NCBI RefSeq assembly: GCF_000238335.3
Contig: NZ_AHCB03000005.1
Span: forward strand, 930,001 to 994,000
DNA length: 64,000 nt
DNA from: Pseudoalteromonas marina
Lineage (GTDB): Bacteria; Pseudomonadota; Gammaproteobacteria; Enterobacterales; Alteromonadaceae
Reading direction: 5' to 3'
The translations under genes and the position numbers were made by a program. The stretch's first letter is position 1, and each line of letters starts with the position of its first letter. The notes under the pieces were generated by a model, which was not told where the DNA came from, searched no databases, and worked only from the letters and a program-made list of their open reading frames with translations. Below are positions 2,472 through 27,397 of the stretch, one piece after another.

Positions 2472-2524
2472 ATTAAGTGTAAATTCAGCTAAACTTAAGT
2501 TTAAGGCGATATTCTGAATAATAT
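2472..2524 (+). promoter_or_regulatory. PmrA-like triple-hexamer box and promoter of the two-component operon
   Basis: Three hexamers lie exactly 11 bp apart: ATTAAG (2472), ATTCAG (2483) and CTTAAG (2494). The last is followed by AT-rich DNA with a possible -10 (TAATAT at 2519). One-turn spacing of direct hexamers is the binding pattern of OmpR/PmrA-class regulators. The box lies in front of the regulator's own gene, so autoregulation is likely. Confidence 0.6.
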
Positions 2525-2544
2525 TTACTCAAAGGCATGCATCA

Positions 2545-3219
2545 TTGAAAGTTTTAATTATCGAAGATTCAGTTTCACTTAGGCGTAGTTTAAGAGTTGG
2601 ACTATCCAATCTTGGTTTCACTGTTGATGACACTGGCGATGGCTCTGAAGGCTTAAGCATGGCTTTGTCTGGTGATTATTCTTTATTAATTCTTGATTTA
2701 ATGTTGCCCTCTGTCGATGGTACTTCAATATTAAAGGCAATTCGTCAGGCAGGAAAAGATATCCGTGTATTAATTTTGTCTGCGAAAGACCTTACTGAAG
2801 ATAAAGTTGACGGTTTGCTCAACGGTGCTGATGACTACCTTACTAAACCTTTTTCGTTTGACGAGCTACATGTTCGATTACTTTGTCTTATGCGCAGGGG
2901 AACATTGAATGTAAATGACAGCAGTGTCAACATTGGCTCAATATCATTAGATTTGCATTTAAAACAATTAAAATGTGGTGGTACGGATGCTCAACTTACA
3001 CCCAATGAATACAAAGTGGTTGAATGTTTGTTTACCAATCAAGGAAAAGTAATTTCTCCTGAAAAGCTTAGCGAATATCTTGCCGGGCAGTATGATGCGA
3101 TTGCAAAAAATTCTTTAGAGGCTCACCTTTCTTCAGCTCGAAAAAAAGTTAAAGCTTTGGGCTACGAGCTTCCAATCAAAACTAAGCGTGGCTTTGGCTA
3201 CTTCGTTGAGAGTCATTAG
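2545..3219 (+). CDS. OmpR/PmrA-family response regulator
   Basis: 224 aa. The N-terminal receiver domain has the acidic pair E7/D8, phospho-acceptor D51 (LILDLMLP) and the conserved Lys in TKPFSF. The C-terminal winged-helix DNA-binding domain ends with the usual wing (IKTKRGFGYFV). The start is a TTG at 2545 behind AAAGG (2531-2535); the nearby ATG at 2537 is out of frame. The gene overlaps the sensor kinase gene by one base. It is preceded by the triple-hexamer box that recurs before three other transcription units here, so it is the obvious candidate regulator of the 2.5-16.9 kb cluster. QseB/PmrA-like by architecture; the signal is unknown. Confidence 0.9.
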   Translation: MKVLIIEDSVSLRRSLRVGLSNLGFTVDDTGDGSEGLSMALSGDYSLLILDLMLPSVDGTSILKAIRQAGKDIRVLILSAKDLTEDKVDGLLNGADDYLTKPFSFDELHVRLLCLMRRGTLNVNDSSVNIGSISLDLHLKQLKCGGTDAQLTPNEYKVVECLFTNQGKVISPEKLSEYLAGQYDAIAKNSLEAHLSSARKKVKALGYELPIKTKRGFGYFVESH

Positions 3220-4637
3220 TGAACTCAATTCATAAAAAGCTAAGTCGCTATTTATCCATTTCGATTTCATTACTGTTGATCTGTATCTTATTGGCAACTG
3301 ATATCAGTGTCGATACATGGATTAGTGATGAATTTGACCGGGCTATGATTAACAAGGTTGGGTTACTTGAAACATTAGTTGAAGAAGATGAAGAAGGCAT
3401 AGAATTTGATTTTGCTGGGGAATTTATGCCGGAATTTGAAGGTAAAGAGAACCCAGAATATTACCAGTTTTGGTATAAAAACGAGGTGTTTGAGAGATCA
3501 GACACGCTAGAGTTTTTTGAAATAAAGGATCTGCCAAAACTAGATGTGCAACTAGACAAGTTTATTTTTCAGAACATCACTCTTCCAGATGGACGAGCGG
3601 GAAAAATGTTATTCACTAAATTTATTCCTCAAGTTGATTCTGATGATAGAGAGCGATTAGGTATAACTAAAGAAGAGTTCGCAAAAAATCAGCATCCAAT
3701 GGAATTTGCTTATGCTCTTAGCACTGAAGAATTAAACTACATTCTATGGTTTGTAGATATCATTTTTATAGTTACATCAATACTTGCCGTCTTTGCTGTG
3801 CGAAAAATTGTTACTATTGTTGTATTTAATAGTTTAAAACCATTAGATGAATTCAATCGTCAACTAAGAAAGGTAAGTTTAAATTCTGATAACCTTGAGA
3901 TTTCTGTCGGCACGCTACCACAAGAACTTGTTCCCATTGCTAACGGTGTTAACCAATTCATCAAAGATAACCACAGCCTGTATTTGCGTGAACAAAGGCT
4001 AACCTCTGATATAGCCCACGAATTAAAAACACCAATTGCCGAACTAATAAGTTTGAGCGAAGTTGCCATAAAATTTCCTCATGAAAAACAAATAACAGAT
4101 AACCTTGCCAGCGATGTTCATGAAATATCATCTCGATTAAAAAATATTGTTAATAGCATCATACTTTTGCAAAAATGTAGCAGTTCCAACGAATTAGCAA
4201 CAAGCAAAATTAACTTAACCGAACTAATTGGAAATATTCTCGCTAGAGAAAATTCAGAAGACAGAGAGATTAAATTTCATCTCGATGTCCCTTTATTGAT
4301 AGTTGAGACCAACAAATTTGCATTAGAAACTGTGTTATCAAATTTGATTAATAACGCAATTTTTTACAGTCCAACTAATACAGCAATAGAGATAGCAACG
4401 TCAAAAACTGATGACAACAACGCTTTGATCAAAGTATCAAATATATGCAATGAAGACTGTCAGGAAGATGATTTGAAATTGTTCTTTGATCCTTTATGGC
4501 AAAAAGACGAATCAAGAACATCGACAGAGCGATTTGGTTTAGGTTTAGCGATAGTAAAATCCTACTGTGAAAAAATTGGAGCAACTGTTGCAGTAACGTT
4601 AGTTGAGAGGAAAATAACATTTACTGTATCGCTGTAA
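3219..4637 (+). CDS. membrane sensor histidine kinase (QseC/PmrB-like)
   Basis: 472 aa, GTG start overlapping the regulator stop (TAGTG). One membrane segment lies at about residues 10-30 and another at about 175-195. They bracket a periplasmic sensor region of ~145 residues unusually rich in Asp/Glu (VEEDEEGIEFDF, EFMPEFEGKENPE), which could bind cations or cationic peptides as acidic patches do in PmrB/PhoQ; that is inference. The cytoplasmic part has the H-box SDIAHELKTPIAEL with H267, an N-box (SNLINNAIFYSP) and a G2 box ([17 protein letters not shown]). It partners the upstream regulator. The DUF5916 gene overlaps its stop by one base, so the three are probably cotranscribed. Confidence 0.9.
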   Translation: MNSIHKKLSRYLSISISLLLICILLATDISVDTWISDEFDRAMINKVGLLETLVEEDEEGIEFDFAGEFMPEFEGKENPEYYQFWYKNEVFERSDTLEFFEIKDLPKLDVQLDKFIFQNITLPDGRAGKMLFTKFIPQVDSDDRERLGITKEEFAKNQHPMEFAYALSTEELNYILWFVDIIFIVTSILAVFAVRKIVTIVVFNSLKPLDEFNRQLRKVSLNSDNLEISVGTLPQELVPIANGVNQFIKDNHSLYLREQRLTSDIAHELKTPIAELISLSEVAIKFPHEKQITDNLASDVHEISSRLKNIVNSIILLQKCSSSNELATSKINLTELIGNILARENSEDREIKFHLDVPLLIVETNKFALETVLSNLINNAIFYSPTNTAIEIATSKTDDNNALIKVSNICNEDCQEDDLKLFFDPLWQKDESRTSTERFGLGLAIVKSYCEKIGATVAVTLVERKITFTVSL

Positions 4638-6856
4638 TGAAAAAGAATTTTTTTTCTTCTTTACTATTTCTTTACCTGTTTGCTTCAAGTATTGCCTTTG
4701 CAACTGAAGTGGTCGTTGATGGCTCCCTGAATGATTCAGGTTGGCACAGCGCGAAGCGAAACACAGTTAATTACCAAGTTGTTCCACTAACGCTAACAAA
4801 GGTAGAGGATAACTTTTCTTATCAAGTGATAACAACAGACCACGGCATATACATAGGTGTTGTGGCAACGACTAAAGCACCATTAAGAGTAAGGACTCAA
4901 GAAAACGATACGCTTTTCACTAATGATCATATTCAACTAATGATAGATATGAATAATACCGAGCAAACAAGTTATGTATTTTCAGTTAATCATCAAGGAT
5001 ATTTTTATGATGGTATCTATAAGCAGAATAAAGAGTTAGATTTAGATTGGAGCAGTCTATGGAACTTCAAAACTAAACTATTTACCGATTCGTGGAGCGC
5101 TGAAATTTATATCCCTTGGACTGCTATGTCTTTTGCCATTCAAGAGCAGAATGAATTCGGCCTTTCTATTACGCGTTTTGATGAATCCACTAATGCTACA
5201 TATTCATCAATTCCGGCAAACGCTTCAATGAATAGCTTTTTGACAAACTTCAGCAAACGAAAAGTTGAAATCAACAATCAGTCGAGCCTAGATGTTTTTC
5301 CATACATTTCGGCCAATCGAGACATTGCAAACAACAAAAACTCTACTGATATAGGGGCGGAGCTTTTTTGGAAACCTACTAAAAGCCAACAATTAAGTGC
5401 CACAATAAACCCGGACTTTGGTCAGGTCGAATCAGATGAGTTAGTCGTTAATTTTTCAGCCATAGAAAGCTTTTTCTCGGAAAAACGACCCTTTTTCAAT
5501 GATAATCAAAGTTTATTTGAAGTTTCCGGGCCAGAGTCTCTAAGAGTAGTACATACGCCAAGAATTGGCGGGGAGTCATATTATGATGAAGACTATTCAG
5601 GTGAGTTGGATTCTGCAATTAAATACACAATAAGTAGTGAACAATTAGATTTTGGGCTTTTATCTGCATTTGAAAGTGCCGATAGCGGGAAATCTGGTAG
5701 AGATTTTTGGTTGTTAAGAGGCCAGTACCGTTTAGGAGCTAACAAATTTGGCGCTTCACTTAATAGGGTTAATACGCCCAGCATTGAGCGAAATGCAATT
5801 ATTATTGAGTCTGATTTCAATTATGCATACTCAGATAGTGCTGAGCTAAATTTCGGTATAATCAGATCTGATATAGAACAAGGACCTGAAACAACGAGCG
5901 ATTTCGGTTGGTGGCTAACAGGAAGTACAGAGCCATCCGAGCAGCATAACCATGAGTTTAGTCTTTTTTACTATGGAGAAGATTTACAGTTAAATGACAT
6001 CGGCTATGTTAAACGAGTCAATCGAAAGCAATTTGAGTATGAATATCAATATATAATTCCAGATTTAGATAGCTGGTCAATAAGAGATGTCACATTTGCT
6101 TTTGAGACGGAAATAAAAACGAACCACCAAAATGAACAACTACCTCGTATTGTCGGTGCAAGTGTTGAATTGGTGACAAATACTGAATTTGAATATCAAC
6201 TTTCTATGGAATTAGGTTCGTCTGGGTATGATGATTTACTAACACGAGGGAATAATTCAGTATGGCTACCATCCTTTTATTTAGCCGAACTTGAACTGAA
6301 TTCTCCAGAATATGACTGGGGAAGCATTGGAGTGGCGCTTGAGATAGGAACTGAGGGACTGACTGGTAACTTTTACAACTCTGAAGTGAGCATTGAGCAG
6401 CAGATTAGCACTCAGTTACACCTTGGACTAACGATATCTCAATACAGCAGTGATAGTTGGCTTGAGTGGGATGAAGGTAATACCGTCGATGAGTTTAACT
6501 TCACTGAACAAGGCATTGAGTTAAATTTAGATTATCAAATTAGTGAAAGTCAGGAAGTACGCATCAAACTTGAGTCTGTTATCGGCAAAGCAAATCACTT
6601 AAATCAATACTTCGTTGACACACTGGGTGAGCTGATAGGCTCTAAAAACCAAGATGATTTTTCTTTTTCTGAAAGTGCTTTCCAGCTTCGCTACAAATAT
6701 TCTTTAAGTAAATTAACCGCATTTTACCTCAGCTATAGTTTTGGTGGGGAATTTGAAGACGATCTCGCGAAGTTTGGAAAAAGAAACCTTTATAAACAAT
6801 CAATAAATGCAAAAGATGCTCATAATCTATTTGCGAAAATTCGACTTCATTTTTGA
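4637..6856 (+). CDS. DUF5916-family outer-membrane barrel with CBM9-like N-terminus
   Basis: 739 aa with a signal peptide (cleavage near AFA-TEV, about residue 22). Residues ~25-210 resemble a carbohydrate-binding family 9-like sandwich (VDGSLNDSGWHSA, WSAEIYIPWTAMSF). The remainder carries the DUF5916 signature NPDFGQVESDELVVNFSA followed by FFSEKRPFF, then a long run of amphipathic strands ending in Phe (KIRLHF), as in an outer-membrane beta barrel. The function of the family is unknown. Its start overlaps the kinase stop, which places it in the two-component operon and suggests it is a sensed or regulated surface component. Confidence 0.8.
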   Translation: MKKNFFSSLLFLYLFASSIAFATEVVVDGSLNDSGWHSAKRNTVNYQVVPLTLTKVEDNFSYQVITTDHGIYIGVVATTKAPLRVRTQENDTLFTNDHIQLMIDMNNTEQTSYVFSVNHQGYFYDGIYKQNKELDLDWSSLWNFKTKLFTDSWSAEIYIPWTAMSFAIQEQNEFGLSITRFDESTNATYSSIPANASMNSFLTNFSKRKVEINNQSSLDVFPYISANRDIANNKNSTDIGAELFWKPTKSQQLSATINPDFGQVESDELVVNFSAIESFFSEKRPFFNDNQSLFEVSGPESLRVVHTPRIGGESYYDEDYSGELDSAIKYTISSEQLDFGLLSAFESADSGKSGRDFWLLRGQYRLGANKFGASLNRVNTPSIERNAIIIESDFNYAYSDSAELNFGIIRSDIEQGPETTSDFGWWLTGSTEPSEQHNHEFSLFYYGEDLQLNDIGYVKRVNRKQFEYEYQYIIPDLDSWSIRDVTFAFETEIKTNHQNEQLPRIVGASVELVTNTEFEYQLSMELGSSGYDDLLTRGNNSVWLPSFYLAELELNSPEYDWGSIGVALEIGTEGLTGNFYNSEVSIEQQISTQLHLGLTISQYSSDSWLEWDEGNTVDEFNFTEQGIELNLDYQISESQEVRIKLESVIGKANHLNQYFVDTLGELIGSKNQDDFSFSESAFQLRYKYSLSKLTAFYLSYSFGGEFEDDLAKFGKRNLYKQSINAKDAHNLFAKIRLHF

Positions 6857-6888
6857 TTAAGGCAACATTCAATCAATCTTATTTAAAG

Positions 6889-6935
6889 TTTCAGTTTCTA
6901 CTAAGCAAAACTTAAGTTTAAATTTTTAGCATAAA
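6889..6935 (+). promoter_or_regulatory. PmrA-like triple-hexamer box, PAP2/eptA operon
   Basis: TTTCAG (6889), ACTAAG (6900) and CTTAAG (6911) are spaced 11 bp apart. CTTAAG is followed after exactly 13 bp by CATAAA (6930), a plausible -10. The same geometry recurs before the Omp85 gene at 10286, which argues for a functional activator-dependent promoter. Confidence 0.65.
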
Positions 6936-6958
6936 ACCACCAACATTGAGGTGATTTT

Positions 6959-7813
6959 ATGCCAGTAAAACTAACAATTGGTCAACAGTATACTAAAGCC
7001 AGTTTTCCTTATTGGAAGCTTATAAGCTTTATATGTTTAATGAGTGCCGTAATGGTAAGTATGGCAATGAATAAAGACGCCTATATCGCCAGCCAAAAAG
7101 ATATCTTTTCTATCAGTAATAACGCTCTGCAAATACTACCCAGTGAAATTTGGCACAATATTACGTACTTGGGAGATGCTCTGATTTTAATTCCGCTGCT
7201 TTCCTTCATTTGCCTTATAAATACGAGAATGTGGGCAGCTATGTTCGGAGCTGTGCCATTAGCTTTCTCACTTAGTTATTTAGGTAAAAATTTTTTTGCC
7301 ATTCCAAGACCTGCTGCCGTTCTAGAACATCAGCAATTTACTATTATTGGTGAAACCCTGACTGCTTATACAAGTTTTCCATCGGGTCATACGATTACGA
7401 TTTTTACAGCAATCTCTGCAATGGTATTTGTTCTTTTAAGAGAAGTTAAAATCAGCGAGCAAGGTAAAACGTATTGGATATATATATCGCTAATGGTCGC
7501 AACAGTAGTCGCCATTTCTAGAGTAGCCGTGGGTGCTCATTGGCCCGTAGATTTAGCATTTGGAGCAATACTAGGCACTGTTTCAGGGTTAAGTGGCGAA
7601 TATTTATCAAGACATTATTCAAAATGGTGGAACTGGACAAAAGTAAAGCCAGCTCTTTTAGGGTATTTTATTCTTGGTTTTTGCTTCATCCTTTTTGTAT
7701 TTACAATCAGTGTAAAACTTCCTGAACTAACTATAATTTGGATAGCAATTTCGGTCAGCGCTATTGTTGGTACATACATCGCATTAAAATCAATATTACA
7801 AAATGAACACTAA
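6959..7813 (+). CDS. PAP2-family membrane lipid phosphatase
   Basis: 284 aa with about six membrane helices. It has all three parts of the PAP2 phosphatase signature: K-x6-RP (KNFFAIPRP), PSGH (SFPSGHT) and SR-x5-H (ISRVAVGAHWPVD). The family removes phosphate from lipids such as phosphatidylglycerol phosphate, undecaprenyl pyrophosphate or lipid A. Overlap with a phosphoethanolamine transferase gene makes a lipid A or undecaprenyl-phosphate substrate plausible, but the sequence alone cannot decide. A strong ribosome-binding site (TGAGGTG) precedes the ATG. First gene of an operon driven by the box at 6889; overlaps the next gene by 11 bp. Confidence 0.88.
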   Translation: MPVKLTIGQQYTKASFPYWKLISFICLMSAVMVSMAMNKDAYIASQKDIFSISNNALQILPSEIWHNITYLGDALILIPLLSFICLINTRMWAAMFGAVPLAFSLSYLGKNFFAIPRPAAVLEHQQFTIIGETLTAYTSFPSGHTITIFTAISAMVFVLLREVKISEQGKTYWIYISLMVATVVAISRVAVGAHWPVDLAFGAILGTVSGLSGEYLSRHYSKWWNWTKVKPALLGYFILGFCFILFVFTISVKLPELTIIWIAISVSAIVGTYIALKSILQNEH

Positions 7814-9383
7814 AGCCCTTTCTAATATTTTAATTTTGAAGGCAAGCAGTTTCACTTTTTGGGTGAGCATTGTAATGACGTTTGCTTACAATTTGGTGCT
7901 GCTAGAGTATGTTAATCAAAACACCAATGTATGGAGCACTAGCGGACTTGGAATATTGCTATCAACTGTTGTTATAGTATTTATCTTTTCATACACCATA
8001 TTTTCATTGCTAGCCCTGACTTCACCAAAAATTCTGAAGCTCTTTCTCGTAACAATTACGATAATAAATGCTTTCGCCATATATTACATGAGCAACTATC
8101 AAGTGGTGCTAGATAGAACCATGATGGGAAATATATTTAATACCCGCTATTCTGAATCTATTGAACTACTCTCTGTAAGCTTGATTTTCCCAACAATAGT
8201 ATTGGGTTTAATTCCAGCTTGTTTTGTAGCCTTAATTCAAATTAAACAAGTTGATAGAGTAAAAATATTAAGTAACGCGTCAATTGCATTAATATTCGCT
8301 TTTGCATTCTTGTATACGAACTCTACAAGTTGGCTTTGGATTGATAAGCATGCAAGTGTATTAGGCGGAAAGATTTTACCTTGGTCATACATAATAAATT
8401 CAGGTAGATATTACTCATCTATAAATAGAACAACTGACGGACAGAAAGCGTTGCCTGATGGCAATTTTCCGGATAACAATAAAACAGTCTTTGTATTGGT
8501 CATTGGTGAAACGGCTCGTGCTGCCAATTTCTCATTATACGGCTATTCCAAATTAACTAACCCAAAGCTCACTGAACAGTCTAATCTACTGGTGCTAAAC
8601 AATACAAAATCCTGCACTACCTATACTACAGGCTCTCTAGCATGTATTTTAGCGCCTAGTGATCAATACTTAGACTATGAAGCACTGCCTACTTATTTAA
8701 CTCGACATGGCGTTGATGTGCAGTGGCGAACCAATAACTGGGGTGAACCACCAATTAAAGTTACAAGTTATGTTGAGGCTAGTGAATTACGAGCTGACTG
8801 TGTGGGAGAAGGCTGTAAGTTAGATGAAGTGCTACTAACTAACTTAATCAATACAATTGAATCCTCTGATAAACAAAAAGTCTTTGTTGTTTTGCATACT
8901 AAAGGGAGTCATGGACCAAGCTACTATTCACGATACACAAAAGACTTTAACCAATTCACACCTGTTTGCAACGATGAAGAAATTAGCAAATGTAGCCCGG
9001 ATGAGTTGATTAATGCCTACGACAATACCCTGCTGTATACCGATCATTTTTTGACGACACTTATAACGGAGTTACAAACATTAGCGAATACTTCATCAGC
9101 TATGATGTACATTTCTGATCATGGTGAGTCACTTGGTGAGCATGGACTTTACTTGCATGGCACACCATATTCATTTGCACCTGATTATCAAAAAGACATC
9201 CCTTTTTTATTTTGGGCATCTGATACTTTTTTAGATTCAAAAGGTTTAAAGCTGGAAGATCTAACTCAAGCTGAAAGCCATAATCAGTTTAACGTCTTTC
9301 ATACTGTTTTAGGTGTGTTTAGCTTTGAATCATCAATATATGATAGTACGCTTGATGTATTGCATAACTCTGGTGAACATTAA
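7803..9383 (+). CDS. EptA-type phosphoethanolamine transferase, divergent paralogue
   Basis: 526 aa. About five N-terminal membrane helices (residues ~15-175) precede a periplasmic alkaline-phosphatase-like domain. Metal and catalytic landmarks are present: GETARAANFSLYGY, a Thr-rich nucleophile segment SCTTYTTGSLAC (T275 the likely acceptor), GSHGPSYY, and SDHGESLGEHG (D439/H440) followed by YLHG. The nucleophile segment differs from the canonical SCGTATAVSVPCMF seen in the second copy at 11977, so the acceptor lipid or sugar may differ. It is expected to move phosphoethanolamine from phosphatidylethanolamine to lipid A or another envelope glycan. Overlaps the PAP2 gene; followed closely by the DUF3108 gene. 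Confidence 0.88.
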   Translation: MNTKALSNILILKASSFTFWVSIVMTFAYNLVLLEYVNQNTNVWSTSGLGILLSTVVIVFIFSYTIFSLLALTSPKILKLFLVTITIINAFAIYYMSNYQVVLDRTMMGNIFNTRYSESIELLSVSLIFPTIVLGLIPACFVALIQIKQVDRVKILSNASIALIFAFAFLYTNSTSWLWIDKHASVLGGKILPWSYIINSGRYYSSINRTTDGQKALPDGNFPDNNKTVFVLVIGETARAANFSLYGYSKLTNPKLTEQSNLLVLNNTKSCTTYTTGSLACILAPSDQYLDYEALPTYLTRHGVDVQWRTNNWGEPPIKVTSYVEASELRADCVGEGCKLDEVLLTNLINTIESSDKQKVFVVLHTKGSHGPSYYSRYTKDFNQFTPVCNDEEISKCSPDELINAYDNTLLYTDHFLTTLITELQTLANTSSAMMYISDHGESLGEHGLYLHGTPYSFAPDYQKDIPFLFWASDTFLDSKGLKLEDLTQAESHNQFNVFHTVLGVFSFESSIYDSTLDVLHNSGEH

Positions 9384-9388
9384 AAATT

Positions 9389-10147
9389 ATGTTGCTCTAC
9401 AACAGCGTTATTAAAATTATTATATTGGTAATGCTTTATTTTGCATTGCCATTAACTGCTGCCCCTCTTATTAATAATGGTTCTGAAGAAGCATCTGGAT
9501 TGAATTTATATACTGCGAAATACAGTGTATTACGAGGCAAGAAAAAATATGGTCGAGCCACAAGAACACTAAATAAAAATAACGCTTCTTATTCGCTATC
9601 ATTCAATAGTAGCGCATCAATTTTTTTCTATAGCATAGATACGAGTGAAACAAGTACTTTTCTATGGCAGAGCAATAAAGTAGCGTTACTGAGCTATGAG
9701 GGGAAAGATTCGAGAACCTTTAAAAAAGATAAACATTTACAGTTAAAATTTGATCATAATAACCAAACTTTAATAACTAAAAATAATGGCGATATTAGTG
9801 AACACAAATTAACGGATGGCGTGTTAGACCCACTATTTGTGTTTGAAAAGTTAAGACTTGACGCACTGGAAAACGATGGGTTTTCTAATGTAAAACAATT
9901 GCATTACACCGTATATGATACAAGTGGCTTCAAAGAATATAACTTCCTGAATGGTGGACGAGTTACTATTGACACACCTCTTGGGGAACTTAATTGCATA
10001 AAATTAAGCAGGATTAGAAAAAACAGCACGAGAAAAACATATATTTGGCTGGCAATTGATAACGACTATATTCCTGTAAAGCTTTTACAAGAACACAAGG
10101 AAGAAGAAGTCGCGACATTACTAATAAGTTCTATTGATAAGCATTAA
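9389..10147 (+). CDS. DUF3108-family periplasmic protein
   Basis: 252 aa with an N-terminal hydrophobic signal (residues ~7-25, ending near LTAAP). The body is nearly all beta strand, with the pattern YTAKYSVLRGKKKYGRATRTL ... VTIDTPLGELNCIKLSR ... TYIWLAIDNDYIPVKLLQ, the signature of DUF3108 (an LolA/LolB-like half-barrel). Family members are thought to bind or chaperone lipids, but no role is established. Only 5 bp separate it from the transferase gene upstream, so it is probably the third gene of that operon. Confidence 0.72.
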   Translation: MLLYNSVIKIIILVMLYFALPLTAAPLINNGSEEASGLNLYTAKYSVLRGKKKYGRATRTLNKNNASYSLSFNSSASIFFYSIDTSETSTFLWQSNKVALLSYEGKDSRTFKKDKHLQLKFDHNNQTLITKNNGDISEHKLTDGVLDPLFVFEKLRLDALENDGFSNVKQLHYTVYDTSGFKEYNFLNGGRVTIDTPLGELNCIKLSRIRKNSTRKTYIWLAIDNDYIPVKLLQEHKEEEVATLLISSIDKH

Positions 10148-10285
10148 GAGTAATAGCTGCATAAACTCCTTACTAATCAAAGATAAAAAGCTACATTTAT
10201 AACTTCTAGTTAACTTCATTAACTAATTATAGAAACTCAATAATAGGAAAGTTCCTTAAAGCAAAAATTGCAAAACTTTGCCAAT

Positions 10286-10332
10286 TATCAGTTTAAGCTA
10301 AGCAAATCTTAAGTTAACAAAATTACCATAAA
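10286..10332 (+). promoter_or_regulatory. PmrA-like triple-hexamer box, Omp85/eptA/dgkA operon
   Basis: TATCAG (10286), GCTAAG (10297) and CTTAAG (10308) are spaced 11 bp apart. A CATAAA -10 begins 13 bp after the last hexamer (10327). The layout is the same as at 6889. Confidence 0.65.
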
Positions 10333-10356
10333 GTCATACTCAGAAGAGGTGTATTT

Positions 10357-11967
10357 ATGAAAAAGCATTTTGTTATCAGCCTATTTGCAACATCGCTAAT
10401 TTGGTTAACTTGTAGAGTACAAGCAGCAGATGCAACTGACGATAATTGTAATCAAAAAGATAAAATAGAATTAAAGACTAACGATATTTTTAATCTAGAA
10501 GACCCCGACACCATTTTTCTCCATCGCTGGGCTAACTTTTTTCATATCAAAACCAAAAATAAAACGCTTTACAATGAAGCTGCATTTTTCATCAAAAAGT
10601 GCGATGTAAGCCAAGCAGATCTTGAAGAACTGGAACGCCACCTCAGAGGTAAAAAATACATAAGAGATGCACGAGTATCTCGAAACGAGAACTCTGACAA
10701 AATCACAGTTGAAACATGGGATAACTGGTCACTAATGCCAACAGTAGATTTTGGCCGTAAGGGGGGAAAGAATAAATACGCTATTGGCATCAAAGACAGG
10801 AATTTCTTAGGCTTGGGTATAGACGCTGAGCTTGAATCGTTTACCAATGATCAACGCAGTGGGTATAAATTTAAAACACACTTTCCCTTATTTCTTAATA
10901 ATAATATTAACGCGCAAGTTAACCTAACCAACAGCGACGATGGCACATCTGAATCAGTATTCATAAAGAAGGGCTTTGTAAGTTTTGATACCAACAATGC
11001 ATTTAATGTTGGCTTTGATAACTTTAAGCAAGTAGATACTCAATACAAACTTGGCAAAACTTACAACAAATTTGAACACATTCAACGTTACTCAACAGCT
11101 AGCTGGCAATGGCTTAAAAATGACTCCAAGGAAGATACATTAAGATTTGGTATTGGCTTTACCAATGAGCAGCATGAATTTTCAGTAATTAATGAGATAC
11201 AAAATCCCGAACTAATTTCTGTAGCACCTTCAAATAGAGGGTTTATGTACCCTTATCTTAGTGTTGAGTATTTGCAAAAAGACTTCAGAAAACTTTCTAA
11301 CCTCAACCTGATAAATCATATAGAAGACTTCAATCTGGGGTGGAATTTAACAACTCAGGTTGGCACTGATATCGGAAATACAGATACCTCACCAACATTA
11401 CTTTGGCGATCCAGTTTAACAAAGGGCATAGAAATATTTGATGATGCTTTTTGGTTTATTACTGCAACCTTAGATGGGGAAATTTACAGTGATTCCGACA
11501 ATTCAAATAGAACTGTATTAAGCCTCAATAATGAATACTTTCATAAAATAAATGATAGCTGGGGTGCTTATTTAAAAAACAGCAGTCAATTTAGTGAAAA
11601 TCAATTTCAAGACAGCCCTATTGTATTAGGTGGTGAAACTGGCTTACGGGGTTACCCATTACAATACAGACATGGCGATCATAGCACTCAATTTACGGCT
11701 GAAGCTCGTTATTATCCTCACATCAATATCTATAAATTAGTTGAGTTAGGCGGAGCTATTTTCGTCGATACAGGCAGAGTTTTTGGTAGTTCAGATAATA
11801 CCAACGACCAAGCTTCGTGGATGACTTCCGTAGGCATAGGCGCTCGATTTTATTCGACGCAAACCAGCGAAGCTCGCGTAATACATTTAGATATCATCAA
11901 GCCAATGACCTCAGATCAAAACGTCAATGGTATCGAATTTCGTATCACTACAAAGCATTCATTTTAA
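10357..11967 (+). CDS. Omp85/BamA-superfamily outer-membrane barrel with one POTRA-like domain
   Basis: 536 aa. After a signal peptide (~23 aa) comes one POTRA-like domain at about residues 60-125, with the typical end RGKKYIRDARVSRNENSDKITVETWDNWS. A 16-strand-type barrel follows, with the superfamily motif GETGLRGYP (variant of the (V/I)RGF/Y lock) near residue 427 and a terminal Phe. It is much shorter than BamA (five POTRAs) and resembles an uncharacterised family found in Vibrio and Shewanella. Promoter box at 10286 and good ribosome-binding site; followed at 9 bp by an eptA homologue, which suggests an envelope-remodelling role. Confidence 0.85.
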   Translation: MKKHFVISLFATSLIWLTCRVQAADATDDNCNQKDKIELKTNDIFNLEDPDTIFLHRWANFFHIKTKNKTLYNEAAFFIKKCDVSQADLEELERHLRGKKYIRDARVSRNENSDKITVETWDNWSLMPTVDFGRKGGKNKYAIGIKDRNFLGLGIDAELESFTNDQRSGYKFKTHFPLFLNNNINAQVNLTNSDDGTSESVFIKKGFVSFDTNNAFNVGFDNFKQVDTQYKLGKTYNKFEHIQRYSTASWQWLKNDSKEDTLRFGIGFTNEQHEFSVINEIQNPELISVAPSNRGFMYPYLSVEYLQKDFRKLSNLNLINHIEDFNLGWNLTTQVGTDIGNTDTSPTLLWRSSLTKGIEIFDDAFWFITATLDGEIYSDSDNSNRTVLSLNNEYFHKINDSWGAYLKNSSQFSENQFQDSPIVLGGETGLRGYPLQYRHGDHSTQFTAEARYYPHINIYKLVELGGAIFVDTGRVFGSSDNTNDQASWMTSVGIGARFYSTQTSEARVIHLDIIKPMTSDQNVNGIEFRITTKHSF

Positions 11968-11976
11968 GGTGTAATA

Positions 11977-13659
11977 ATGAACAAAGCTTTAGTTTTTCTA
12001 AAAAATATCACACTTACCACCAATCAGTTAGTAATGGTCACTTGTGCATATGTAACATTGGTGTTGAACGCTCCGTTTATTTTAAAAACGTCTTCTGCAA
12101 TATTAGCACTTAGTGAGTATAATATTTTCTTCTTACTATCTGTCCCAATATTCCTCCTGTCATTATCGGTCATATTTCAATGCTTCTTTGCATTTCGTTG
12201 GATAACTAAACCTATACTAATACTACTAGTACTAACATCTTCCCTTGTTTTTTATAGCACAGTGACCTACGGCATTGTTTTTGACTATGGGATGATACAA
12301 AACACATTTGAAACTGACAAAGCCGAAGCACTTTCATATGTTAACTTTTCTGCTTGTGTATTTTTTGTTGTCTTAGGTATTCTGCCATCAATACTGATTG
12401 CGAAAGTAAAGCTCACATATTCATCCTTCATGGGAGAGTTGCTATCCAGAGCTAAGTTAATCACAGGTAGTTTTGCCACCATTTTTTTAATAGCAATCGT
12501 TTTTTATTCTAGCTATGCATCAATTGGAAGAAATAACCGTGATTTGATCGGCTATTTAACTCCCTATGCGTTAATTGATTCTACGGTGAAATATGCAAAC
12601 AGAAATTATCTCTATCCGCCTTTAAAGTTTACTTTACTAGATACTTCGCCAACTATTTCTAGTGCGAATAACACTAAAAGCATTACCGTTTTGGTGCTTG
12701 GAGAAACAGCTCGCACCCAAAACTTTTCTCTAAATGGTTATGACAAACCTACCAATAGCCAAACCAAAGACTTAGGCGTTGTTTCTTTTAAAGATGTTAC
12801 CTCATGTGGCACAGCAACAGCGGTATCTGTTCCCTGTATGTTTTCTAGATTAAACAAAGAAGACTATGAAAAACGAGTGGCTACAGCTCAACAGAATGCC
12901 ATCGATTTAATTCATTTGGCTGGGGCCGAAGTCTTTTGGATTAGTAACAATAATGGTAGCTGTAAGGGGGTTTGTGCTCGTGTCAAAACTGAGCAAATTT
13001 CAACAAATAGTAATAAGGCATTATGCGATGGTGAATATTGCTTTGATGAGGTGTTGGTTGAAGCATTAAGAAATAAACTTCATTCATTGAAAAGCGACAA
13101 TACACTAATAGTACTTCATATGATCGGCTCTCATGGACCAACTTACTACCGACGCTACCCCAAAGATAAACGAGTATTTTCTCCTGACTGTCAACGTAGT
13201 GATATCCAAAATTGTAGTCAAGAGGAACTGGTTAATACCTACAACAACACTATTGCTTATACTGATTTAGTCTTGTCAGAAATCATCACAGAACTTGCAG
13301 CATTGAGCAATGAGAACAATATCAAAACATCAATGATTTATGTTTCTGATCACGGTGAATCTTTGGGCGAAAGTGGCGTGTATTTACATGGTTTACCTTA
13401 CGCATTTGCACCAGAAGAACAAACAAAAGTGCCATTGATTTATTGGGGGGATAAATTACATCACAAAGCCAAGTTAGATTGTTTAAATAAAATTAGTGAA
13501 CAGCCTATATCTCATGACAACGTATTCGATATTTTACTTGCTGAAATGCAAGTAAAGTCAAAAGTTTATCAACCTAAAAACAACCCTTTTAATCATTGTA
13601 CTAATGGTGTTTCCGTAGCAAATGCAAAGTCACCAACAATTTCTCAAGGAGTAAACTAA
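11977..13659 (+). CDS. eptA: EptA-type phosphoethanolamine transferase, canonical
   Basis: 560 aa, five N-terminal membrane helices and a periplasmic catalytic domain. The nucleophile segment is the textbook SCGTATAVSVPCMFS with T281 as acceptor, as in EptA and MCR enzymes. Other metal ligands are in GETARTQNFSLNGY, GSHGPTYYRRYP and SDHGESLGESG (D458/H459), followed by YLHGLPYAFAP. Cys pairs (CKGVC, LCDGEYC, CQRSDIQNC) match the disulfides of this family. It should add phosphoethanolamine to lipid A phosphates, lowering negative charge and polymyxin binding. It sits directly upstream of dgkA, which recycles the diacylglycerol that the reaction releases. Confidence 0.92.
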   Translation: MNKALVFLKNITLTTNQLVMVTCAYVTLVLNAPFILKTSSAILALSEYNIFFLLSVPIFLLSLSVIFQCFFAFRWITKPILILLVLTSSLVFYSTVTYGIVFDYGMIQNTFETDKAEALSYVNFSACVFFVVLGILPSILIAKVKLTYSSFMGELLSRAKLITGSFATIFLIAIVFYSSYASIGRNNRDLIGYLTPYALIDSTVKYANRNYLYPPLKFTLLDTSPTISSANNTKSITVLVLGETARTQNFSLNGYDKPTNSQTKDLGVVSFKDVTSCGTATAVSVPCMFSRLNKEDYEKRVATAQQNAIDLIHLAGAEVFWISNNNGSCKGVCARVKTEQISTNSNKALCDGEYCFDEVLVEALRNKLHSLKSDNTLIVLHMIGSHGPTYYRRYPKDKRVFSPDCQRSDIQNCSQEELVNTYNNTIAYTDLVLSEIITELAALSNENNIKTSMIYVSDHGESLGESGVYLHGLPYAFAPEEQTKVPLIYWGDKLHHKAKLDCLNKISEQPISHDNVFDILLAEMQVKSKVYQPKNNPFNHCTNGVSVANAKSPTISQGVN

Positions 13660-13662
13660 TCC

Positions 13663-14028
13663 GTGTTTGATAGTGAAAACAAGCCTAAAGGTTTTAATCG
13701 AGTTTATCTCGCAACATTAAATTCAACTAGAGCGTTCAAATGGCTCCTAAGGAATGAAGCCGCATTCAGACAAGAGTTACTGTTGCTCATATTGTCGATC
13801 CCCGTAACTTTCTTGTTCAATATTACACTGAAAGAGCAACTCATACTTATCATTGCGGTACTGTTCATTATGTTTACCGAGATAGTAAATACTGCAATAG
13901 AGGCAGTCGTTGACCGTATTGGTTTCGAAATACACCCACTGTCAGGTTTAGCGAAAGATTTAGGGTCTGCCGCAGTATTAGTGAGTATAGTGATTGCTAT
14001 ATGTATTTGGTTGGTAGTTCTTTTTTAA
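13663..14028 (+). CDS. dgkA: diacylglycerol kinase
   Basis: 121 aa, GTG start 4 bp after the eptA stop with AAGGA upstream. Three membrane helices and the DgkA signature are present: RNEAAFRQELLLL, then EIVNTAIEAVVDRIG with the catalytic Glu and Asn. It phosphorylates diacylglycerol to phosphatidic acid in the inner membrane. Linkage to eptA is well known in other bacteria and is functionally logical, because EptA leaves diacylglycerol behind. Confidence 0.94.
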   Translation: MFDSENKPKGFNRVYLATLNSTRAFKWLLRNEAAFRQELLLLILSIPVTFLFNITLKEQLILIIAVLFIMFTEIVNTAIEAVVDRIGFEIHPLSGLAKDLGSAAVLVSIVIAICIWLVVLF

Positions 14029-14055
14029 TGACATACTCACATAGAGGAATTTTAT

Positions 14056-14814
14056 ATGAATAAACAATTTAACGATGCTCTGATAAAAGTACCTCAATTA
14101 ACAATAGGGTTTTGGATAATAAAAATACTCGCGACTACGTTAGGTGAAACAGGTGGTGATGCTGTTTCAATGTCAATGAATTTGGGCTATTTAGTTGGAA
14201 CTGTAATCTTTATGTCCTTTTTTATTGCTGCTGTTATTATGCAAGTAAAATCTACAAAATTTAGCCCGTTTATTTATTGGATCACTATTATTGCATCAAC
14301 GACAGTGGGGACAACACTTGCTGATTTTGCCGATAGATCGTTGGGAATTGGGTATTTAGGAGGTTCAACTCTATTAGCTACTCTCTTAATTATTACATTA
14401 GCTATTTGGTATAGAACAATTGGAAGTATCAGTGTTTCTTCTATTGACAACCCTAAAGCTGAATCGTTTTACTGGTTAACCATTATGTTTTCTCAAACAC
14501 TTGGGACTGCACTGGGAGACTGGACTGCTGATACTGCTGGATTGGGTTATATTGGAGCTGCATATATTTTCAGTACAGGCTTAGGAATTGTATTAACCCT
14601 ATATATGTTCACTAAAGTATCTAGAACAATGTTATTTTGGCTTGCATTTGTTTTGACTCGTCCCTTAGGCGCGGTTGTTGGTGACTTTTTAGACAAGCCT
14701 GTTGCGCACGGTGGTTTGGAATTGAGTAGATATTCAGCTACCGCGACACTACTGTTTGTAATAGTAGTTTTGATCATACTTCTACCTCAACGACCTGCTT
14801 TAAAACAACATTAA
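14056..14814 (+). CDS. DUF347-repeat membrane protein (COG4705-like)
   Basis: 252 aa, about eight membrane helices arranged as four repeats. Each repeat has an aromatic/hydrophobic start and a (T)xGxxxGD/AD core: FWIIKILATTLGETGGD, YWITIIASTTVGTTLADF, YWLTIMFSQTLGTALGDW and FWLAFVLTRPLGAVVGDF. This is the DUF347 repeat family, whose function is unknown; the regular acidic residues inside the membrane hint at ion or small-molecule transport. GAGGAA ribosome-binding site; 27 bp after dgkA, so probably the last gene of the operon that starts at 10357. Confidence 0.82.
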   Translation: MNKQFNDALIKVPQLTIGFWIIKILATTLGETGGDAVSMSMNLGYLVGTVIFMSFFIAAVIMQVKSTKFSPFIYWITIIASTTVGTTLADFADRSLGIGYLGGSTLLATLLIITLAIWYRTIGSISVSSIDNPKAESFYWLTIMFSQTLGTALGDWTADTAGLGYIGAAYIFSTGLGIVLTLYMFTKVSRTMLFWLAFVLTRPLGAVVGDFLDKPVAHGGLELSRYSATATLLFVIVVLIILLPQRPALKQH

Positions 14815-14822
14815 TGTCTAAT

Positions 14823-14869
14823 TATCAGTTTTAATTAAGCAATTCTTAAGTTTAACCTAATACAGTAAA
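14823..14869 (+). promoter_or_regulatory. PmrA-like triple-hexamer box, ltaS-like gene
   Basis: TATCAG (14823), ATTAAG (14834) and CTTAAG (14845) are spaced 11 bp apart. The -10-like AGTAAA (14864) begins 13 bp after the last hexamer. This is the fourth box of the series and the closest to the PmrA consensus (TTAAG-N5-CTTAAG). Confidence 0.65.
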
Positions 14870-14898: not shown

Positions 14899-16869
14899 AT
14901 GTTTACTTCTATCTACAGCTTTATCAGACCATTCCTACTATTCTCTGTTTCTGTCATGCTATTCCTAACCTTAGTACGAACAGGGTTGGCTATCTGGCAA
15001 TTAGATAGATTTAATGACTTAAATAGTATATGGAGCCTAATCACAAATGGCTTTCGTATAGACTTAAGTAGCGTAGGTTACTTATGCGCCATCCCGGCGT
15101 TATTGCACCCTTGGGTGTCAAAAACTAGATTTCAAGAATATTGGTCATTGGTTTTGCGAATTTGGTTTTTGATCTGCTTTATGGGCATATTGTTTTTTGA
15201 ATTAGCAACGCCCGCATTTATCAATGAATACGGCTTTAGACCAAACAGGCTATTTATTGAATATCTAGCTTATCCTGATGAAGTGTCTAAAATGCTGGTG
15301 AATGGTCATTTGATAACAATATTGATAGTGTTTGCTCTATTGCTATTTCCTGTTAAAAAAATATGGCAGTTTACTGATCACGTAGTCTCTAACAAAGTAA
15401 AAGAAGATAACGCAGCAATCGGAAGTAGGCTGGTTTCTTGTTTGATGCTTTTTGTAATAATTGCTTTATCTGCACGAGGGACATTAGGCCACAGACCAAT
15501 CAATCCTGCCTTAGTGTACTTTTCCACTGACCCACTAGTTAATTCACTTACATTAAATTCGACCTACAGTGTTGCTTATGCGCTTAATCAATTCGGTGAT
15601 GAAAAAAATGCAGCTAAGTTGTATGGCAAGATGGAAGATGATCGAGTTATTGAGCTAGTTCGTCAGGAGTCAAAACAACCTTTAGACAGCTTCAAAAACG
15701 ATAACTTACCCACTTTAAGTAAGCGCTCTCCGAGCTTTAAGGGGCAACCAAAAAACTTGGTAATTATCCTTGAAGAAAGCTTAGGTGCCCAATATGTATC
15801 ATCTCTTGGTGGAATCCCGCTGACACCTGAAATTGATAAATTAAATCAAGAAGGTTGGGCATTTAAACGATTATACGCAACAGGCACTCGCTCCGTTAGA
15901 GGTATTGAAGCGGTTATAACTGGCTTTACTCCAACTCCCTCTAGGGCAGTAGTTAAGTTAGACAAATCGCAAAAGGACTTCTTTACTATTGCATCTCTGC
16001 TAAAAGAAAATGGTTATGAGACTCAATTTATTTATGGTGGAGAAAGTCATTTCGACAACATGAAAAGCTTCTTTCTAGGAAACGGTTTTACAGACATTGT
16101 TGACTTTAATGATATTGAAAACCCACAATTTGTAGCGTCTTGGGGGGCAAGCGATGGTGATTTGTTTAATCAAGCTGATATTGAGTTAACTAAGCTTCAT
16201 AACGAAGGAAAACCATTTTTTAGCTTCATATTTACGTCAAGTAACCATGATCCATTTGAAATTCCTGACGGTATTGTTACCTCTATCCAGTATAGCGATA
16301 AACAATTGACGAAGTATGATGACAAAGAATTACTGCGCCATAAAGCCATACAATATGCAGATTATGCCTTAGGACAATTTATTGCAAAAGCAAAGATGCA
16401 AGCCTATTGGGAAAACACAATATTCCTCGTTGTTGCCGACCATGATGCAAGAGCAATGGGTAAAGATCTTGTTCCTATTAACAATTTCCATATTCCGGGT
16501 GTGATCCTAAACTCAGGTAAAGAACCCACTTTAGATCAACGAATAGTCAGTCAAATCGATTTAGCACCAACTCTTTTGTCATTAATGGGTATAGAGAATA
16601 TTTCACCAATGTTAGGTCAAGACCTAACAGTTCCAACGGCTTCTAATAGAGCTATGATGCAGTATGCAGAGAATTTTGCTTATATGGTTAATGATGAAGT
16701 AACCATCCTTCAGCCAAGTAAAGCACCTTTGAACTTTCAATATAATTATGAACTCAACACACTATCACCAATAGATGTTAATCATGATACTTCAGAAATT
16801 GCATTGGCCCATGTATTGTGGGGAAGTTTGGCGTATAAAAACTATTGGTATTCTCAGCAGGGAAAATAA
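14899..16869 (+). CDS. LTA synthase/MdoB-like phosphoglycerol transferase
   Basis: 656 aa. Five membrane helices occupy residues ~1-215, followed by a periplasmic sulfatase-fold domain (~285-600). Key segments: NLVIILEESLGAQYVSS (metal-binding Glu), ATGTRSVRGIEAVITGF (Thr/Ser-rich segment with the family nucleophile, near T330), FTSSNHDPFEIP and VADHDARAMG (metal Asp/His). Gram-negative members transfer phosphoglycerol from phosphatidylglycerol to periplasmic glucans or outer-membrane glycolipids. It stands alone behind its own triple-hexamer box, so it appears to be a separately transcribed member of the same regulon as the eptA genes. Confidence 0.86.
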   Translation: MFTSIYSFIRPFLLFSVSVMLFLTLVRTGLAIWQLDRFNDLNSIWSLITNGFRIDLSSVGYLCAIPALLHPWVSKTRFQEYWSLVLRIWFLICFMGILFFELATPAFINEYGFRPNRLFIEYLAYPDEVSKMLVNGHLITILIVFALLLFPVKKIWQFTDHVVSNKVKEDNAAIGSRLVSCLMLFVIIALSARGTLGHRPINPALVYFSTDPLVNSLTLNSTYSVAYALNQFGDEKNAAKLYGKMEDDRVIELVRQESKQPLDSFKNDNLPTLSKRSPSFKGQPKNLVIILEESLGAQYVSSLGGIPLTPEIDKLNQEGWAFKRLYATGTRSVRGIEAVITGFTPTPSRAVVKLDKSQKDFFTIASLLKENGYETQFIYGGESHFDNMKSFFLGNGFTDIVDFNDIENPQFVASWGASDGDLFNQADIELTKLHNEGKPFFSFIFTSSNHDPFEIPDGIVTSIQYSDKQLTKYDDKELLRHKAIQYADYALGQFIAKAKMQAYWENTIFLVVADHDARAMGKDLVPINNFHIPGVILNSGKEPTLDQRIVSQIDLAPTLLSLMGIENISPMLGQDLTVPTASNRAMMQYAENFAYMVNDEVTILQPSKAPLNFQYNYELNTLSPIDVNHDTSEIALAHVLWGSLAYKNYWYSQQGK

Positions 16870-26167: not shown

Positions 26168-27397
26168 GCTGTGAGTTCAACCACTCGATGCAACACACTG
26201 ATTAAATCGCTCCGCAGGTGTTTCGTATTCTAGTGTTTTCCGCGGTCTCTCATTAAGTTGTCTGGCAACTTGGTTTAATCTTATCTGAGAATGCTCATTT
26301 AAGTTAGTTCCTTTTGGAAAATATTGTCTTAATAACCTATTTGTATTTTCATTGGAGCCGCGTTGCCAAGGTGATTGTGGATCGCAGAAATATACTTGAA
26401 TATCTGTAGCTAGAGTAAAGTCTTTATGATTTGTAAGCTCACATCCTCTGTCCCAAGTTAATGATTTATAAAGCTCTGCTGGCAACTTATTAGCTTGTTT
26501 AATCAACGCTTCGATTACTGGCTTTGTTTTATTACTAGGTACTTTCACTAACATTACATACCTAGAGTGCCGCTCAACTAGAGTCGCGATAAAACTGTTT
26601 CCTGAGCCTTGGATCAAGTCTCCCTCCCAGTGGCCTGGAACAGCTCTGTCTTCAACATTTGATGGCCTTTCACTAATTGGTACAGCGTCAACTATCTTTC
26701 CTAACCCTTTACCTTTAAGAGTGGCGTGTTTTGATTTCCTGACTACCCGCTGCGTCCTTAAGTGTTTTTGTAGCTCTTTTTTTAAGGCGCCGCGGGTTTG
26801 TATATATAGGGTTTTATATATTGTTTCGTGCGACACATTCAAATCCTCATTATTGGGGTATCTCCGCCTAAGCCAACCAGAGATTTGCTGAGGTGACCAT
26901 GCAGATTCCATCTTTTGAGCAATGATTAAACATAATTCTTTGTTGCCATACAGCTTACAAGGCTTAGGGCGTTTGGCATTTTCCCAGGCAACTTTGTCAG
27001 CTTTACTCGCTCGATATTTTTTAATCCCGCCGTGGCGGTTTACTTCACGGCAAATAGTGGAAGGTGAGCGATTAAGGTATCTCGCTATTTCTCGAAGTGA
27101 CTTACTTGCTGCTAACCCTCGTGAAATGTCTTCTCGCTCTGCAAGAGTTAGTGTTGTTGGTGAGCGTTTGGGCTCAAGCGGCCGAACACCACCTGTTTTA
27201 TGGATAATACCTAATATAGATGAATGGTATCGATCAAATAGCCTTGCTATATCATGCGCACTATCACCGCGCTGATATCGATCCCAAATTAACCTTCTTT
27301 GTTCTGCATTATAATAAATACGCTTTCTCTGTTTCATGTAAACGCTCCTTTAACTAATAATAAGGATAGCGTTGCATTCACCAGTTGAACTCACAGC
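26168..27397 (-). mobile_element. IS30-family insertion sequence, apparently complete
   Basis: The ~1230-bp element is bounded by inverted repeats: the first 14 bp (GCTGTGAGTTCAAC) are identical at both ends and matches continue to about 27 bp. GA flanks both ends (26166-26167 and 27398-27399), a possible short target duplication. It carries one intact transposase gene on the minus strand. Inserted between the copper module and the decayed mer pair. Confidence 0.85.
26177..27337 (-). CDS. IS30-family transposase
   Basis: 386 aa, ATG with GGAG upstream. Two N-terminal helix-turn-helix segments (HDIARLFDRYHSSILGII and SLREIARYLNRSPSTICREVNRHGG) are characteristic of IS30. The DDE core shows Asp in HWEGDLIQG, Asp in LTWDRGCEL and Glu in RGSNENTNRLLRQYFPKG. 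Full-length and uninterrupted, so probably active. Confidence 0.93.
   Translation of the reverse strand: MKQRKRIYYNAEQRRLIWDRYQRGDSAHDIARLFDRYHSSILGIIHKTGGVRPLEPKRSPTTLTLAEREDISRGLAASKSLREIARYLNRSPSTICREVNRHGGIKKYRASKADKVAWENAKRPKPCKLYGNKELCLIIAQKMESAWSPQQISGWLRRRYPNNEDLNVSHETIYKTLYIQTRGALKKELQKHLRTQRVVRKSKHATLKGKGLGKIVDAVPISERPSNVEDRAVPGHWEGDLIQGSGNSFIATLVERHSRYVMLVKVPSNKTKPVIEALIKQANKLPAELYKSLTWDRGCELTNHKDFTLATDIQVYFCDPQSPWQRGSNENTNRLLRQYFPKGTNLNEHSQIRLNQVARQLNERPRKTLEYETPAERFNQCVASSG

Follow-up and report, generated by a model that had tools for sequence, protein, structure and literature searches.

We analysed a 64,000-nucleotide stretch of Pseudoalteromonas marina DNA (NZ_AHCB03000005.1, positions 930,001–994,000; the whole genome is 4.19 Mb), hereafter the window, in which four boxes of three hexamers each stand upstream of genes of an envelope cluster. 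Genes for the modification of lipid A are under the control of PmrA-type regulators, for which an operator of two half-sites is described. The regulon considered here, of which close versions are also found on plasmids of Alteromonas and Glaciecola, appears as a whole to use a fixed operator of three half-sites. Among the matches listed in openly licensed literature, we found neither a three-half-site PmrA-type box nor an account of this regulon.

The envelope cluster and its four boxes

All genes and boxes of the cluster lie on the + strand. Box 1 (2472–2499; ATTAAG-N5-ATTCAG-N5-CTTAAG) precedes the genes of a PmrA-like response regulator of the OmpR/PhoB family (2545–3219, TTG start) and a sensor histidine kinase (3219–4637), followed by that of a DUF5916 protein with a weak CBM9-like match (4637–6856), which has no box of its own. 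Downstream of box 2 (6889–6916; TTTCAG-N5-ACTAAG-N5-CTTAAG) are the genes of a PAP2-superfamily phosphatase (6959–7813; PF01569), the first of two phosphoethanolamine-lipid A transferases (EptA; 7803–9383; NF007160, 578 bits, cut-off 561) and a DUF3108 protein (9389–10147; PF11306). Box 3 (10286–10313; TATCAG-N5-GCTAAG-N5-CTTAAG) is followed by the gene of a BamA-like outer-membrane protein, a weak match only (10357–11967; TIGR03303, 27 bits, cut-off 297; no Pfam match), the second eptA copy (11977–13659; NF028537, 567.9 bits, cut-off 500), a diacylglycerol-kinase-like gene (13663–14028), which had no NCBIfam match and takes its name from its positional counterpart on a Glaciecola plasmid, and a DUF347 membrane protein gene (14056–14814; PF03988). 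Box 4 (14823–14850; TATCAG-N5-ATTAAG-N5-CTTAAG) precedes the gene of a sulfatase-fold membrane protein that looks LTA-synthase-like by eye (14899–16869; PF00884). The best MCR model for the second EptA was MCR-4, with 503 bits against a cut-off of 1225, so this protein is a distant relative and not MCR-4.

The boxes end 43–49 bp ahead of the start codons at 2545 (TTG), 6959, 10357 and 14899. The earlier note on this DNA, made from the letters of the window, had described four boxes with three hexamers at exact 11-bp steps, each ahead of an envelope-cluster gene and one of them ahead of the regulator's own gene; both descriptions held at every position.

The boxes are rare. The WTCAG form of the array, with up to three mismatches, gave nine matches in the window compared with a shuffle mean of 3.16, and none of 100 shuffles reached nine. 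A generalised pattern that also covers box 1, TMAG-N7-TMAG-N5-YTTAAG, matched four times in the window compared with a mean of 0.025 over 400 order-1 Markov resamplings (largest value 1). This expectation per 64 kb corresponds to 1.6 matches per genome. Genome-wide, the generalised pattern gave exactly four matches, all on the + strand and all being the four boxes, while the reversed control gave none; the array therefore does not recur at random genome positions with similar frequency, an outcome that the earlier note had named as speaking against it. The exact TCAG form was found three times in the genome, always within this cluster, and allowing one mismatch added a single further site (G000:C6:46031). 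Two-hexamer sites (YTAAG-N5-YTTAAG) are more common, 28 compared with 8 for the reversed control, and it is thus the third hexamer that gives the set its exclusivity.

Fifty promoters of the window and of its relatives were aligned, and 27 of these made up a non-redundant set (<80% identity). Most rows of this alignment were picked by patterns that require the half-sites; the -10 region was never a selection criterion. The proximal CTTAAG is invariant in all 27 non-redundant promoters, and the distal and middle hexamers vary. TAAG and TCAG exchange with each other in the distal and middle slots of orthologous promoters, which makes TCAG a permitted half-site variant. The view that an upstream TCAG hexamer lies beyond the PmrA consensus therefore stood in one respect, as the third half-site is indeed extra, and failed in another, as TCAG is no distinct motif. 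Box 1 had likewise been set apart, having ATTAAG ahead of ATTCAG. Its variants do stand in another order, but it is the same array, and the same order occurs at the loci L193–L196, L080 and L083. A separate motif for box 1 was ruled out by this recurrence in window-type relatives and on an Alteromonas stellipolaris plasmid.

Promoter geometry and the linked regulator

In the non-redundant promoters, the final CTTAAG is followed after exactly 10 bp by TAnnnT (T in 25/27, A in 27/27 and the sixth-place T in 27/27). In the window, these -10 elements read TATTCT (2510–2515), TAGCAT (6927–6932), TACCAT (10324–10329) and TACAGT (14861–14866), all on the + strand, in the order of the boxes. The CATAAA/AGTAAA sequences proposed earlier as -10-like are present 13 bp past boxes 2–4, but the element conserved across relatives is TAnnnT, 3 bp nearer to the box, and it replaces them as the -10. 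No convincing -35-like hexamer was seen: for spacers of 15–19 bp, the best match to TTGACA in the four window promoters had only two to three of six places. With TAnnnT as the -10, the starts of the half-sites fall at about -28, -39 and -50.

This geometry was compared with that of E. coli arnB, eptA, pmrR and waaH, which we take to be PmrA-controlled genes. Their promoters carry two hexamers and a 10-bp step to TAAAAT, GAGCAT, CATACT and TAAAAC, respectively (waaH by eye), and in none of the four does the third position hold a hexamer with a final AG. Because the E. coli promoters share the 10-bp step to the -10, the window promoters resemble class II promoters of the PmrA type that carry one additional half-site. 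In a study of Klebsiella PmrA, the -35 element of pbgP sits at half-1 of the PmrA site (PMC4660055), which is the counterpart of the middle hexamer in the window boxes.

The regulator encoded at 2545–3219 scored above the cut-offs for both domains of the OmpR/PhoB family (PF00072, 84.3 bits; PF00486, 52.7 bits). Its best-scoring model was that of PmrA, at 167.6 bits compared with a cut-off of 330, and it is 36% identical to E. coli BasR. It is therefore best read as a PmrA-like member of the OmpR family rather than as PmrA itself. According to the same Klebsiella study, PmrA residues N188, N196 and R210 read bases, and T187, V192 and H195 touch bases (PMC4660055). The aligned residues of the window regulator are N189, S197 and R215, and K188, A193 and S196. 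Two of the three mutation-tested base-contact residues are thus kept (N188 and R210, here N189 and R215), whereas H195 and N196 are replaced by Ser-Ser. An altered recognition helix of this kind would be in keeping with the A-to-C change that the half-sites tolerate.

Considering these features, we judge it quite probable that the four boxes are operators of one regulon, with three tandem half-sites in a class II position, and that the linked regulator activates from them. Three nnTMAG half-sites in 11-bp phase would be occupied by the phosphorylated regulator in head-to-tail order. The proximal pair, with starts at about -28 and -39, would form a PmrA-type core that replaces the missing -35 and contacts RNA polymerase as in class II promoters, and a third protomer at about -50 would add affinity or cooperativity. 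The regulator would in this way activate the PAP2-eptA, BamA-like-eptA-dgkA and LTA-synthase-like units as well as the operon that encodes it, with remodelling of lipid A and the envelope as the likely output.

All neighbouring half-site pairs share the 11-bp spacing, which would also permit a switch, in which a dimer on the distal and middle half-sites is repressing or poised and a dimer in the alternative register, on the middle and proximal ones, is activating. The invariant proximal CTTAAG beside varying distal and middle hexamers suggests instead a graded stack in which the proximal site leads. Although this argument is only suggestive, we consider such a switch quite improbable.

Boxes and regulator in related genomes

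The TCAG form was searched in 147 relatives, the P. marina genome counted among them, and gave 29 matches in 17 genomes compared with one for the reversed control. In 108 genomes of the genus, a TMAG/HTAAG form matched 70 times, in 30 genomes, compared with two matches for the control; eight arrays were counted on both strands, since CTTAAG is its own reverse complement. The regulator was searched in the same genus set with up to 27 candidates scored per genome, and genomes without a hit may for this reason include misses. Arrays were present in 24 of 31 genus genomes with a regulator orthologue (≥64% identity) and in 6 of 77 without one (Fisher p = 1.4e-12, kinship uncorrected). All seven orthologue-bearing genomes without an array belong to one clade, whose regulators are 64–65% identical to that of the window.

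An array lies directly upstream of the regulator gene in 20/20 genomes with a 68–69% identical regulator (G060 included), and in the aligned genomes of this group a second array faces a divergent LTA-synthase-like/eptA/dgkA operon. In G006, an array precedes an unlinked homologue (L021) that is 30% identical to the window BamA-like gene, and eight more genomes (G001, G150, G025, G060, G012, G076, G163 and G055) have a near-identical site away from the regulator. Two further families of the order likewise have three TMAG half-sites, ahead of operons of an EptA-like gene (by eye), a regulator and a kinase; the regulators there are 59% and 52% identical. In a tree of 49 regulators, the box-bearing lineages form one group apart from BasR; the outgroup branches are long and several inner forks are unresolved. 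The P. shioyasakiensis regulator is identical over the compared columns to those of G012 and G055 of the same genus. Arrays that look seven hexamers long by eye, in P. shioyasakiensis (L084) and its relatives, resolve into one three-hexamer array for each divergent promoter and one weak extra hexamer.

The contig scan showed at least two close relatives among 80 loci listed. Close versions with boxes are carried by the A. stellipolaris plasmid pASTE61-200 (regulator 92% identical) and the Glaciecola plasmid pGLAAG01 (82%; copper genes alongside), and Paraglaciecola algarum has a version with a 91% identical regulator. G060 has both a 68% and a 92% identical regulator, each with boxes. The exclusivity of the boxes, their co-occurrence with the orthologue, the TCAG/TAAG exchange and the unlinked box in G006 all support the proposal, made in the earlier note, that one OmpR-type regulator would act on an extended array. 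The boxes might in principle be bound by a PmrA-like regulator encoded elsewhere, the linked one controlling something else. Two-hexamer CTTAAG-type boxes do occur in genus genomes without a regulator hit, for example before an eptA-like operon of G046, which implies another regulator of similar specificity in those genomes. The three-hexamer arrays, however, follow the orthologue in the genus, travel with the regulator in Alteromonas, Glaciecola and Paraglaciecola, and include one before the regulator gene itself, and we find a regulator from elsewhere very improbable.

The presence of the third hexamer was addressed by a search of the genus that was blind to the distal position and required a middle TMAG, the proximal CTTAAG, N10 and TAnnnT, as well as "not C" at one outside position. 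The last condition drops some true sites, and the search frees only the distal hexamer from selection; 150 matches were listed. Of the listed matches, 65 of 72 from 24 genomes with a close orthologue had an in-phase distal TMAG, compared with 1 of 50 from genomes without a regulator hit (p = 2.9e-25, kinship uncorrected) and 0 of 15 from genomes that have only a 60% identical paralogue. Counting distinct sequences among the listed matches, the values were 38/45 with a close orthologue and 1/48 without a hit (p = 1.6e-17, kinship uncorrected). In the distinct close-orthologue sequences listed, TMAG occurs at offset 11 in 38, and every other offset from 5 to 14 has at most one. Seven matches in close-orthologue genomes are exceptions; five of these look unrelated, and the other two, in G019 and G021, are boxes of the paralogue itself.

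We observed a different third hexamer, or none, in the other groups. In the paralogue's boxes it ends in AG in 15/15 listed matches (GCGTAG, GCCTAG and similar). It is absent from all five genomes in which a different box recurs and the regulator had no hit (G046, G020, G049, G082 and G068); the operon behind the G046 box reads eptA-dgkA-LTA-synthase-like. This operon (L224, G046:C1:286000-293000) has a two-hexamer box and no adjacent regulator or kinase genes, and its LTA-synthase-like gene is seen as two overlapping reading frames.

These distributions bear on a simpler explanation, in which only the two proximal hexamers bind a regulator dimer, as in PmrA, and the distal TMAG belongs to another factor or has another cause. 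The two hexamers of E. coli PmrA-type promoters agree with it, and so do the boxes of a plasmid group described below, most of which are without a third hexamer. Against this, the distal hexamer agrees with the middle one in its TAAG/TCAG variants and its 11-bp phase, it is found with close orthologues only (among the listed matches), and a second factor would need the same specificity and phyletic pattern. We therefore regard the two-hexamer explanation as improbable.

Several observations weigh against three half-sites bound by the linked regulator. The support for its link to the boxes is comparative, and the related genomes are not independent. In the 64–65% clade, none of 13 listed matches has the distal TMAG, although 7 of the 13 end in AG at this place. 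G007 has a paralogue-type box yet no regulator hit, which may be a miss of the regulator search. Three of the four boxes on A. macleodii and Salinimonas plasmids, whose regulators are 57–58% identical, have no third hexamer and the fourth has CTACAG; the third hexamer is thus not essential to such systems generally. The middle hexamer of box 1 on the Glaciecola plasmid is TTTCAT, outside the consensus. Two full dimers would use a fourth half-site, a further 11 bp upstream, but a position weight matrix scan of 26 non-redundant promoters gave this place no support (z = 1.3 relative to other upstream offsets, with the expected G in 12/26). At least three of the 29 TCAG-form matches (L018, L019 and L029) look unrelated. 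Finally, six genus genomes without the orthologue have array-like matches; those in G087, G077 and G069 look unrelated, and G032, G071 and G085 share one site before what by eye looks like a CadC/ToxR-type regulator gene.

At this shared site (L163, L168 and L172; about 1499–1528), a three-hexamer array of the TTAAG type with 11-bp steps lies between the CadC/ToxR-type-like gene and a divergent gene. It perhaps serves a different regulator with the same architecture.

Since its presence tracks the close orthologue and not the paralogue, the 64–65% clade or the genomes without a hit, the third half-site is a feature of the lineage that goes with the regulator. Two related systems of the genus are largely alike in the proximal pair and the 10-bp step but differ in the third half-site, which is TMAG in the window type and [GC][TC]AG in the paralogue type; G019 and G021 each combine the two systems and the two box types. 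As a tentative and rather unlikely extension, the third half-site could encode specificity and so insulate PmrA-like paralogous systems from one another, the third protomer reading out which regulator is bound.

Known systems and the surroundings of the module

The box of PmrA/BasR (Salmonella, E. coli, Klebsiella, Acinetobacter) consists of directly repeated CTTAAG-type hexamers separated by 5 bp (PMC10927774), and the window boxes share this design. Further likenesses are the presence of eptA among the targets and the step to the -10 region seen in the four E. coli promoters. The proximal pair also fits the PmrA operator YTTAAK-N5-YTTAAK broadly, but all four window boxes have a third in-phase half-site and allow TCAG.

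Sites that go beyond a pair of direct repeats, in 11-bp steps, are also found with another member of the OmpR/PhoB family, ArcA of E. coli: 92 of 158 sites have three to five direct repeats with 11-bp centre-to-centre spacing, three repeats can be protected, and the choice between a dimer plus a monomer and two dimers is not settled (PMC3798270). ArcA sites as described there vary in repeat number, spacing and position, whereas the window arrays are fixed in number and in the step to the -10; the regulator, half-site and targets differ too. By this comparison, ArcA is a precedent for three direct repeats, and the three-half-site form would be new among PmrA-type operators. As a fourth half-site is not conserved, the same question of a dimer plus a monomer or two dimers stands here, and the two- and three-half-site versions of a similar promoter in one genus make it testable in four simple promoters.

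Two-component systems that adjoin and control eptA and dgkA are described for Vibrio, namely CarRS/VprAB and RstAB (PMC10433830 and PMC12064563), and the window cluster resembles them in having two-component genes next to eptA and dgkA. A CarR/VprA-type system was ruled out by the motif, which for V. vulnificus CarR is given as GACAN6TACA (PMC10433830), compared with the TMAG/CTTAAG hexamers here.

A DDE_3 (IS630-like) transposase gene (989–2035) ends about 440 bp before box 1, which is consistent with acquisition of the module. The A. stellipolaris plasmid (L080) has two more array-like sites, at 18466 (- strand) and 27695 (+ strand). After the module, the window holds a copper/silver resistance region (17280–40350) with a CusS-type kinase and regulator and a multicopper oxidase. 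By eye, the open reading frame list of this region also contains CopC/CopD-like, CusA-like RND and CDF-like genes, and an IS30-like transposase gene at 26177–27337.

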